Shown here in pieces: positions 60,113 through 63,556 of a stretch of DNA of 64,000 bases. Below the pieces are notes generated by a model. The model was not told the DNA's origin, searched no databases, and saw nothing but the letters and a program-made list of their open reading frames with translations. The translations under genes were made by a program, and so were the position numbers. Source of the DNA: Microtetraspora niveoalba (GTDB lineage: Bacteria; Actinomycetota; Actinomycetes; Streptosporangiales; Streptosporangiaceae); the NCBI RefSeq assembly GCF_001570405.1, contig NZ_BBYM01000022.1, forward strand, positions 62,001-126,000. Direction: 5' to 3'. Position 1 is the first letter of the stretch, and every line of letters begins with the position of its first letter.

Positions 60113-60877
60113 ATGGGTCTGCTGGACGGCAAACGCCTGCTGGTCACCGGCGTCCTCACCGACTCCTCGATCGCCTACAGCGTGGCGAAGCTCGCTCAGG
60201 AGGAGGGCGCGACCATCGTGCTGACCGGCTTCGGCCGCCTCAGCCTCGTCGAGCGCATCGCCAGGAGGCTGCCCGAGCCCCCGCCGGTGATCGAGCTGGA
60301 CGTGCAGAACACCGAGCACCTCGACACGCTCGCCGACCGGGTGGGCGAGCATCTGGGCGGGCTGGACGGCGTCGTCCACTCCATCGGGTTCGCGCCGCAG
60401 ACCTGCCTGGGCGGCAACTTCCTCAACACGAGCTGGGAGGACGTGGCGACCGCCGTCCACGTCTCCACCTACTCCTTCAAGTCGCTCGCCGTCGCGTGCC
60501 TGCCGCTGATGAAGGACGGCGGCGCCGTCGTCGGCCTCGACTTCGACGCCAGCAAGGCGTGGCCCGTCTACGACTGGATGGGCGTGGCCAAGGCCGGTCT
60601 GGAGTCCTGCTCCCGCTATCTCGCCCGCGACCTCGGCAAGCACGGCATCCGGGTCAACCTGGTGGCCGCCGGGCCGCTGCGCACCATGGCCGCCAAGAGC
60701 ATCCCCGGCTTCCAGGAGTTCGAGGAGAGCTGGCCGGAGAAGGCGCCCCTCGGCTGGGACCTGACCGACACCGAGCCCGCCGCCCGCGCCTGCCTCGCCC
60801 TGCTCTCCGACTGGTTCCCCGCCACCACCGGGGAGATCGTGCACGTCGACGGCGGCGTGCACGCGATGGGGGGCTGA
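60113..60877 (+). CDS. fabI: Enoyl-ACP reductase FabI (InhA-like)
   Basis: A 254-residue NADH-dependent reductase. VTGVLTDSSIAYSVAKLAQE at the N-terminus is the InhA-type cofactor loop, and YDWMGVAK carries the catalytic Tyr-X6-Lys; LDFDASKAWPVYDWMGVAK closely parallels InhA. It completes the elongation cycle after fabG, 80 bp downstream of it. hemH, which follows inhA in mycobacteria, is absent. Confidence 0.95.
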   Translation: MGLLDGKRLLVTGVLTDSSIAYSVAKLAQEEGATIVLTGFGRLSLVERIARRLPEPPPVIELDVQNTEHLDTLADRVGEHLGGLDGVVHSIGFAPQTCLGGNFLNTSWEDVATAVHVSTYSFKSLAVACLPLMKDGGAVVGLDFDASKAWPVYDWMGVAKAGLESCSRYLARDLGKHGIRVNLVAAGPLRTMAAKSIPGFQEFEESWPEKAPLGWDLTDTEPAARACLALLSDWFPATTGEIVHVDGGVHAMGG

Positions 60878-61104: not shown

Positions 61105-62292
61105 TCAGGCCATGCGGTGGCGGCCCGGCGAGCCGGAGAGCCGGATGCCCTCGAAGGGCATCGACTCGGGCGGGTTCGCGCGGGCGCGGCGCGCCGACAC
61201 CACGCGGGTGGCGAGCACCGCCGACAGCAGCAGCGCCGCGGTCAGCGCCGTCTCCAGCCCGTTGTTCGACCGCCGCGCCGGGATCGCCGCGCCCTTCATG
61301 TGCGTGGCGAGCCCCGGAACGTACTGCCCCGGCCAGAGCAGCGGGATGCCGACGTCGTCCGGGTCGACCGCGATGTCGATCGGGCGGATCGGCCTGCCCC
61401 CGTCGATCAGGTTCGGCCGGTTCTCCGGCGGGCGGGTGGGTTCGGTCGGCAGGGTGCCGTCCCCGTTCTCACCGCGGACCGCGCCCGCCTCGTTCTCGTC
61501 CGCCGCGCCCTCGCGGGTGGGCTTCGCCGTCCCGCCGGTTCTGTCGCAGCGGTCGTCGCGGGCCGCCGTGAGGCACCCGTCCTCCACCGTCCGCGTCAGC
61601 CCGCCGGTCAGGTCCACCGCGTCCCCCACCGCGCCGCCGACACCGCTCACGACCTCTCCGACGGCGCCGCCGGCACCGCCCACCGCGTCGCCGACGCCTC
61701 CCACGACGCCGCCGAGCCCGCCTCCGGACGCCCCGCCGCCCGCGCCGCCCAGCGTGTCGCCCACGCCCTTCACCGTGCCGCCCAGCGTGTCCGCGACCCC
61801 GCCGACGGTGCCTCCCAGGGTGTCGGTCACACCGCCGACCGTGTCGCCCAGCGTGCCCGTCACCCCTCCCACGGTGTCGCCGAGCGTGCGGGTCACGCCG
61901 CCCACGGTGTTCCCGAGGCCGCCGCCGAGCCCGCCCACCGTGTCGGTCACGCCGCCGACGGTCGTGCTCAGCGTGCCCGTCACGCCGTTCACGGTCTTGC
62001 CGAGGGTGTCGGTAACGCCGTTGACCGTGCCGTTCACCGTCCCGGTCAGTCCGCCGACCGCCGTGTCGACCGCCTTGCCGATCCCTGACGTCGCGCCGCC
62101 GGTCGCCGTGTCCAGCGTGCCCGTCACGCCGTGGACCACGGAGCACAGGCCGTCGGTCACGCCGGACAGGACCCCGCCGCCCGTGCAGTCGGCCGCCTGC
62201 GCGGGCTCGGCCGCCAGCAGTGGGACTCCCACGGTGAGGGCAACCGCCAGCGCCCCCGCAGAGATCGCGGACGTATGACGTCCGATCTCCAT
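61105..62292 (-). CDS. Secreted 11-residue-repeat protein with C-terminal membrane anchor
   Basis: A 395-residue exported protein. Signal peptide about 1-33 ends in AQA. A Cys pair (DCTGGG, DGLCSV) starts the mature chain. About residues 50-225 are imperfect 11-mers of the form TVGGVTDTLGG, some 15 to 18 copies. A second Cys pair (EDGCLTAARDDRCDRTGG) closes the repeat. A polar linker is followed by one membrane span (GLETALTAALLLSAVLATRV) and a basic tail, so it is probably anchored in the membrane with the repeat outside. ATG 62292 after GGGGAG. No homologue recognised. Confidence 0.8.
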   Translation of the reverse strand: MEIGRHTSAISAGALAVALTVGVPLLAAEPAQAADCTGGGVLSGVTDGLCSVVHGVTGTLDTATGGATSGIGKAVDTAVGGLTGTVNGTVNGVTDTLGKTVNGVTGTLSTTVGGVTDTVGGLGGGLGNTVGGVTRTLGDTVGGVTGTLGDTVGGVTDTLGGTVGGVADTLGGTVKGVGDTLGGAGGGASGGGLGGVVGGVGDAVGGAGGAVGEVVSGVGGAVGDAVDLTGGLTRTVEDGCLTAARDDRCDRTGGTAKPTREGAADENEAGAVRGENGDGTLPTEPTRPPENRPNLIDGGRPIRPIDIAVDPDDVGIPLLWPGQYVPGLATHMKGAAIPARRSNNGLETALTAALLLSAVLATRVVSARRARANPPESMPFEGIRLSGSPGRHRMA

Positions 62293-62617
62293 ATGCTCCC
62301 CTTCCCGAAACCAGGACTCGTCGTTCGCCCGCTCGTCGGTCGCGTCCGGGCCGGCCTCCCACCCGGCCGCCGCTGCCCCGCGCGGCGGCTCTGTCCCGGC
62401 GTCGCCGTACCGTGGACGCGGGCCGCATGTGAGCGGGATGGGCGGCATATGTCGGACGCTCCCTACGGCTCCCACTCTTTTCCTAAGCGCCCTGATTTTT
62501 CGCCGAAAGTTGCGATTCGGTATCGACGCGTGATACGCGAGAAGAACTCTCGTTCTTTCGGCCGGTCCCGTCACACGAAGGCGGGCACGCGCGCCGCGCC
62601 GCGATGTGGGGGCCGCG
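62293..62617. other. Intergenic region upstream of the repeat protein
   Basis: No gene in this 325-bp region. It holds two inverted repeats: GTATC-N7-GATAC (62520-62536, centred on ACGCGT) and AAGAAC-TCTC-GTTCTT (62542-62557). The first may be an operator; the second, read on the minus strand, lies about 60 bp after the aldo/keto reductase stop and may be a weak terminator. The stretch 62475-62560 is A/T-richer than its surroundings. Confidence 0.4.
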
Positions 62618-63556
62618 TCAGGAGTCGGAGACGTCGTCCAGGGCCTCGCGGATCTCCCGAGGAAGGGTGAGCGTCTCGGCCTCCAGGACCCCGAGGAGCT
62701 GGGCGTGCGTACGCGCCCCGACCACGGCGGCCGACACGCCCGGCCGGTCCCTGACCCACGAGAGGGCCACCGCGAGCGGCGAGACGCCGAGGCCGTCGGC
62801 CGCCGTCGCCACCGACTCGACGATCCTGCGGCAGCGTTCGTCCAGGTACGGCCGGACGAACTCGGCGAAGTGCGGCGTCGCGGCGCGGGAGTCGGCGGGG
62901 ATGCCCGTCCGGTACTTGCCGGTCAGCACGCCCCGCCCGAGGGGCGACCAGGCGAGGAAACCCGCGCCGACGTGCGCGGCTGCGGGGAGCAGCTCCTGCT
63001 CGGGCTCCCGCGCGAGCAGGGAGTACTCCGCCTGGGCGCACACGATGGGGGCGCGGGAGTCGCCGGAGCGCTGCCACACCGCCGCGGCGGCGAGCTGCCA
63101 CCCGGCGTAGTCGCACACCCCGGCGTACGCGGTGCGTCCCGTGGACACGGCGAGGTCGACGGCGGCGAGCGTCTCCTCGAGGGGGACGTCGGGGTCGAAG
63201 GCGTGGAGCTGCCACAGGTCCACCTCCTCCAGCCCGAGCCGGGTCAGGGAGGCGTCCAGGGCCCGGATGAGGTGCCTGCGTGACGCGTCGCGCCTGCCGC
63301 CGGCCGTCAGCACCGCCTTGGTGGAGATCACCAGCTCGTCGCGCCGGACCACGTCGCGCAGCAGCCGGCCGATCAGCAGCTCGGCGTCGCCGCCGCCGTA
63401 GACGTCGGCCGTGTCGATCAGCGTGCCCCCGGCCTCGACGAACGCGGTGAGCTGCGCGGTCGCCTCCTCGGCCCCGGTGTCGCGGGCCCAGGTCATCGTG
63501 CCGAGCCCCACCCGGGACACCGAGAGACCGCTGCGCCCGACAAGTCGCTGATCCAT
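62618..63556 (-). CDS. Aldo/keto reductase
   Basis: A 312-residue TIM-barrel NADPH oxidoreductase. Tetrad: Asp in LIDTADVYGGG with its Tyr, Lys in VISTKAVL, His in LWQLHAFD. The C-terminal NADPH-binding region is SAAVVGARTHAQL. ATG 63556. It is divergent from uppP with a 44-bp gap. The substrate is not predictable. Confidence 0.92.
   Translation of the reverse strand: MDQRLVGRSGLSVSRVGLGTMTWARDTGAEEATAQLTAFVEAGGTLIDTADVYGGGDAELLIGRLLRDVVRRDELVISTKAVLTAGGRRDASRRHLIRALDASLTRLGLEEVDLWQLHAFDPDVPLEETLAAVDLAVSTGRTAYAGVCDYAGWQLAAAAVWQRSGDSRAPIVCAQAEYSLLAREPEQELLPAAAHVGAGFLAWSPLGRGVLTGKYRTGIPADSRAATPHFAEFVRPYLDERCRRIVESVATAADGLGVSPLAVALSWVRDRPGVSAAVVGARTHAQLLGVLEAETLTLPREIREALDDVSDS

Follow-up and report, generated by a model that had tools for sequence, protein, structure and literature searches.

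The gene at positions 61105..62292 (−) of the window, by which we mean the whole 64,000-nucleotide stretch analysed here, raises the question of what a secreted protein built around 11-residue repeats might do, and how such a gene is controlled. In coordinates, strand and layout it is as originally predicted: one uninterrupted frame that begins with ATG and runs for 395 codons before its stop, encoding a secreted protein anchored in the membrane by a single helix. The signal peptide, recognised by eye, spans residues about 1–34 (SAISAGALA...AQA; 62191..62292 (−)), and its residues S11, G13 and L15 are nearly invariant. It is followed by a first cysteine pair, C36 and C50, with a spacing of 14 (62143..62187 (−)), by the hendecad tract at residues 55–190 (61723..62130 (−)), which lag-11 identity, unit scoring and hydrophobic moment support, and by a second pair, C240 and C249 (61546..61575 (−)). 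Among the 49 aligned members of the family described below, C36 is invariant, and C50 and the second pair are nearly so. A charged, Pro-rich linker leads from C240/C249 to the motif IPLLWPG just outside the membrane (residues 316–322; 61327..61347 (−)), where P321 is invariant and L319 and W320 nearly so; a W-P/G type motif is found in 48 of the 49 members. Hydropathy places the transmembrane helix with its Arg-rich stop at residues 349–371 (ALTAALLLSAVLATRVVSARRAR; 61180..61248 (−)), and the invariant columns here are T348, L350, T351, L355, A358 and R363. The predicted cytoplasmic tail (residues 372–395, ending ESMPFEG...GRHRMA; 61108..61179 (−)) carries the invariant positions P379, R393 and A395. 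The final Ala is present in 47 of the 49 members and the remaining two extend beyond it, which leaves the reading of ...GRHRLA as a C-terminal degron a speculation. Both cysteine pairs and the single C-terminal helix had been claimed and were confirmed, and secretion with membrane anchoring is supported by the signal peptide, the hydrophobic helix and the basic residues. We rejected a lipoprotein: a lipobox-like string occurs in one of the 49 members and is absent from the window protein. In that one member (L067:6703-7683 (−)) the string lies near the signal cleavage site, unlike in the other 48.

The window protein had no match at E 1 or better in Pfam and NCBIfam, so the original statement that no known family was recognisable holds. 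Across the 49 members we obtained four matches of the Pfam/NCBIfam type at E 0.003–0.01, each in one or two members and to unrelated families that do not include the chaplins; a match of the window protein to FtbJ had E 0.0098. The family profile gave no match to PDB sequences at E 0.1. Judging from the alignment, the protein is a member of a so far unnamed family of 49 distinct proteins, which is most conserved at both ends and keeps the layout described above except in L063, where the second cysteine pair is missing. The gene is single-copy in its own genome, where two other matches reached only E 0.0038 and 0.0076, and it is present in all four genomes examined of the window's genus. A single-sequence search at E 0.001 or better matched 92 of the 200 genomes of the same GTDB family, some of these matches spanning only the low-complexity centre. 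Of 150 genomes in the order, the 49-protein profile matched 68 (two of them weakly, at about E 5e-4 with in-frame stops), all but one in the same GTDB family; the exception (G200, E 2.6e-15) carries the match on a contig other than that of its aldo/keto reductase. The class sample yielded matches in 24 of 394 genomes, 16 of them in the same GTDB family. The other eight (E 1.6e-6 to 5.7e-4) covered only model positions 24–206 of 298, and six contained in-frame stops, so that the 394 genomes contained no convincing match outside the GTDB family, and no characterised homologue. One member each was found in Microbispora amethystogenes and M. triticiradicis of the Streptosporangiaceae, from which we take the GTDB family to be the Streptosporangiaceae. 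The open-licence literature searched held no description of the gene or of its upstream element, which is weak evidence, since a gene without a name is difficult to find in print.

The gene also occupies a constant place. An aldo/keto reductase gene (62618..63556 (−)) lies upstream on the same strand and a fabI-like enoyl reductase gene (60113..60877 (+)) is convergent with it, both named from reading. Among 40 regions fetched around family matches the former was present in all 40 and the latter in 36, one of the four misses (L049) being a contig end; the family gene itself is in all 40 by construction, because the regions were chosen for holding a match. In some regions uppP lies further along. 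In one (L047:7321-10021), about 2.7 kb separate the repeat gene from the aldo/keto reductase.

The predicted 11-residue periodicity was confirmed. The lag-11 identity over residues 53–184 was 0.579, whereas 10,000 shuffles averaged 0.189 and never exceeded 0.314; the lag-22 identity was 0.49. Matches to the consensus GVTDTLGGTVG at six or more of 11 positions occurred in 12 windows, 11 of them non-overlapping, and at five or more positions in 17 windows, several overlapping. The repeats are thus real, but the count of fifteen or more was somewhat generous: about 11–12 are clear and a decayed Gly/Val-rich stretch accompanies them. The hydrophobic moment of the same tract was 1.39 at 98.2 degrees, the angle of a hendecad, and 0.66 at the 100 degrees of a plain alpha helix. 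For the family we evaluated the first 60 residues after the second cysteine in 43 members, six of the 49 being left out for an extra or missing cysteine. The moment peaked at 96–98.5 degrees in 34 of the 43, and at 98.2 degrees it was significant (p 0.01 or better, 5,000 shuffles) in 39, falling short in L060 (p 0.25), L066 (0.07), L055 (0.013) and L064 (0.019); a 60-residue stretch cannot separate 98 from 100 degrees, whereas the 132-residue window tract can. Lag-11 identity was 0.38–0.51 in five proteins, those from the window's genus and its sister, and low (0.08–0.15) in L011, L030, L050, L053, L055, L058 and others; in L014, L016 and L031 it was 0.16–0.19 despite a significant moment at 98.2 degrees. 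The 11-residue logic therefore extends more widely across the family than recognisable repeats do. AlphaFold models showed long helices in the tract at low confidence, with pLDDT mostly 50–65 there in the window protein and below 50 throughout the tract of a Microbispora protein (mean pLDDT 37.9 and 34.8 for the two models; monomer only). Because confidence was low in both proteins, we infer the tract helix rather than take it from the models. For the right-handed hendecad coil also suggested originally, which would be a folded oligomer, the models offer low-confidence helices in a monomer. The original suggestion of an amphipathic 11-residue surface accordingly has the periodicity on its side and remains a lead, there being no significant homology of the apolipoprotein or synuclein type.

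Tract length varies and the ends stay fixed: the distance between the inner cysteines is 162–218 residues in those five proteins from the window's own genus and its sister, and 70–163 residues in the 38 other evaluated members. The alignment of the five contains 11-residue gaps along with other gaps, and the long repeat array is a lineage elaboration within the conserved family. We regard the frame as coding because relatives keep it at the same locus and because 19 of 20 comparisons by region gave a dN lower than dS, these being point estimates on ungapped codons, without a significance test and with repeat alignments that may be misregistered. The lone exception was the 24-codon tail against L009 (dN 0.099, dS 0.057), and dN/dS in the repeat tract was about 0.25–0.37 in four comparisons. 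As a separate observation, dS was 0.15–0.29 in the helix block (61180-61377 (−)) and 0.10–0.21 in the signal-peptide block (62113-62292 (−)), below the 0.51–0.61 of the repeats in the same species pairs; this perhaps reflects constraint at the DNA level, recombination or misregistered repeats.

Beyond the original prediction, the new observations are the conserved family, its conserved ends and an upstream element that occurs once per genome. This element of 48 bp (62507-62554 (−)) has the form AACGAGA-N6-YTCRCGTATCAC-N3-TCGATACCGAATCGCAACTT and lies 99–245 bases ahead of the assigned start codons. Taking the best match to its right part upstream of each of 49 start codons, we counted at most two mismatches over 28 fixed positions in 40 of the 49 and at most six in 47; the other two rows had eight. 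The best of 980 such searches with 20 shuffled motifs had 11. Information per column was 1.72 bits in the left box, 0.45 in the N6 spacer, 1.66 in the core, 0.22 in the upstream flank and 0.67 in the downstream flank; what counts here is the contrast with the flanks and not the absolute bits, because the rows are related.

Of 200 genomes of the GTDB family, 73 (in 20 of 68 genera) carry a 20-position core of the element with two mismatches at most, as a single copy in each, and a reversed control pattern was found in none of the 200. For 70 of the 73 core sites a family match follows downstream at no more than 1 kb, with the core oriented toward it. Five of these 70 (G190, G121, G179, G195 and G100) stand 600–780 bases from the match because the match is partial. 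Among the remaining three, the gene proved on reading to be properly placed in G171 and G196, and in G070 the contig ends about 650 bases past the core. The core was found in 15 of 388 genomes of the class sample, all within the GTDB family, and in none of the 348 class genomes outside it, as counted from the listing. Some genomes that bear the gene have no core at two mismatches, for example the g34 group (six mismatches in L049).

Several identities were considered for this DNA. Searches with half of the element at up to two mismatches gave no sign of further targets that would make a regulon: the right half found no second site in the window genome, and the left half found two extra two-mismatch sites in 12 genomes, compared with one control hit. 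A single element per genome beside a single gene is unlike an ordinary regulon operator. The arms GTATC-N7-GATAC, suggestive of a symmetric operator, are perfect in 35 of 49 rows; because the changes in the other 14 are uncompensated in the opposite arm, symmetry is unsupported as an essential feature. A LexA-like reading of GAACGAGAGTTC is true of the window's group alone and fails in the other genera compared. A scan for sigma-70 promoters found nothing. The spacing from AAC to CGTATC (14) or TATC (16) we take to resemble that of ECF-type promoters. We think it improbable that the conserved DNA serves instead as a leader in the RNA or contains a small open frame, even though its distance from the assigned start could place it within a 5' untranslated region and the RNAalifold energy of −0.73 kcal/mol is lower than in any of 60 column shuffles, whose minimum was −0.42. 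That energy comes from a single weak hairpin of three pairs in 46 distinct rows, Rfam holds no family matching the element at the gathering threshold, and the invariant positions, by reading, ignore codons and share no common start codon.

Secreted proteins with a C-terminal hydrophobic helix are known from other mycelial actinomycetes. The closest working analogues are SspA of Actinoplanes missouriensis, a sortase-anchored protein that acts on the spore surface and whose mature part is predicted to be disordered (PMC13293333), and CwpA and CwpB of the same species, which are sortase-anchored surface proteins (PMC13251363). The Actinoplanes proteins carry a sortase pentapeptide, whereas the family studied here has none and continues into a conserved tail after the helix. 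The 90 C-terminal residues contain no LPXTG or LAXTG motif, nor a looser form of it, in any of the 49 proteins. A whole-protein scan with six motifs listed in PMC13251363 matched only at residues 12–76 of four of the 49, which we consider N-terminal chance matches. The long chaplins and rodlins of Streptomyces are likewise secreted surface proteins of mycelial actinomycetes (PMC4255298); the family differs from them in the lack of LAXTG near the C terminus. Since there is no sortase motif near the helix, we conclude that this is not a wall protein of the chaplin or SspA type, and the database matches reported above likewise spoke against chaplin membership; homology to a described cell-wall or chaplin-like protein, named originally as what would refute the reading, was not found in these searches. 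By analogy with SspA and the chaplins, the family may nonetheless act as an envelope or spore-surface component.

An 11-residue amphipathic unit is shared with alpha-synuclein, perilipins, LEA proteins and apolipoproteins. These types are richer in charge and anchored differently, and the family differs from the synuclein and perilipin types in its Thr/Gly/Asn polar face, signal peptide, cysteine pairs and helix anchor. The match of alpha-synuclein to the window protein was non-significant (E 0.76), and a Perilipin match in one of the 49 members (E 0.0034) was not significant given the number of searches.

Our main reading, to which we give a probability of about 0.45, is that of a lineage-specific, regulated, membrane-anchored envelope protein with an amphipathic 3-11 helix, its function being predicted from sequence. 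The protein would be exported by Sec, and its cysteine pairs would form disulfides outside the cell. The tract would form the 3-11 helix, with a Thr/Gly/Asn face that is mostly uncharged, and would rest against the membrane, envelope lipid or further copies of itself; repeat number would set the length of the tract and hence be free to change. The C-terminal helix would hold the protein in the membrane and the conserved tail would dock a cytoplasmic partner. The dedicated element, most simply a promoter with a protein-binding site, would activate the gene when a particular condition arises, which might be a stage in the growth of hyphae or in sporulation. A more ambitious version is doubtful but worth stating: that the roughly 48-bp element is a private control element kept in 20 genera and recognised by a regulator that is dedicated to it or highly selective, perhaps as an ECF-type promoter with a long operator, and that the protein is a lineage-defining envelope component whose hendecad helix would serve as a length-tunable ruler or a lipid-face coat.

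The repeats might instead be a flexible, disordered spacer that keeps the N-terminal cysteine domain off the membrane through the wall, the hendecads being a by-product of duplication. Low AlphaFold confidence, the varying tract length and the Gly-rich composition would all fit such a spacer, as would the example of SspA, likewise predicted to be disordered and active on the spore surface (PMC13293333). We nevertheless find a spacer unlikely: the 98.2-degree moment is significant even in members with low lag-11 identity, for which duplication alone is insufficient, and dN is below dS within the tract. That the repeats are Gly-rich low-complexity drift and have no function is scarcely credible given the fixed locus, the conserved ends and the excess of dS over dN; the eight weak class matches outside the GTDB family, six of them with in-frame stops, do show that the tract can be imitated by GC-rich DNA of low complexity. 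A different possibility is a one-pass sensor, in which the outside part would sense the state of the wall or membrane, the tail would signal to a cytoplasmic partner and the element would provide feedback control. This would suit the block from the LWP motif through the helix to the tail, which holds most of the invariant columns of the 49-protein alignment. Only 21–35 residues follow the hydrophobic window in family members, however, the window protein gave no Pfam or NCBIfam domain, and none of five tracked flanking genes reads as a regulator, and we consider the odds of a sensor small.

What makes the locus worth attention is above all the element tied to the gene and the breadth of conservation, and not the repeats alone. 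PMC4255298 lists Streptosporangium among mycelial genera without WhiG and WhiI, so that Streptomyces cannot simply serve as the model for how the relatives of Streptosporangium control and build their surfaces. A widespread anchored protein with a single-copy element supplies a defined gene and a defined DNA bait for its regulator. The family also offers a natural series of repeat lengths in which a largely uncharged 11-residue amphipathic helix can be tested outside the cell.

The same locus was also read in 15 of 20 reductase-centred regions, mostly from genomes without a family match, between the reductase and fabI or beyond (the other five being L130, L131, L138, L140 and L144). The family is present in four of the 15 (L126–L129). 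Four of the 11 family-less regions, from genera that lack the family, encode a secreted protein of about 220 residues with one cysteine pair and a C-terminal helix (L132:2437-3096, L134:2579-3253, L135:2166-2837 and L137:2562-3233, all (−)); in the seven others, with the cut-offs applied for length and GC, no small protein of this kind was seen. Like the family, this protein is encoded between the reductase and fabI and has a signal peptide (by eye), a cysteine pair about 15 residues apart and a C-terminal helix; by reading, it differs in having no hendecads, LWP motif or GRHRLA tail. The best match to the element core in these four regions had eight to nine mismatches. A large frame adjoins the gene in these regions; in L134, the one compared with Pfam, it is RecD2-like (a helicase). 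Alignment of the protein to the family by hhalign gave a probability of 82 and E 1.1e-5, limited to roughly the first 60 residues. The protein may therefore be a remote orthologue of the family, but a match of this kind can arise from signal peptides alone.
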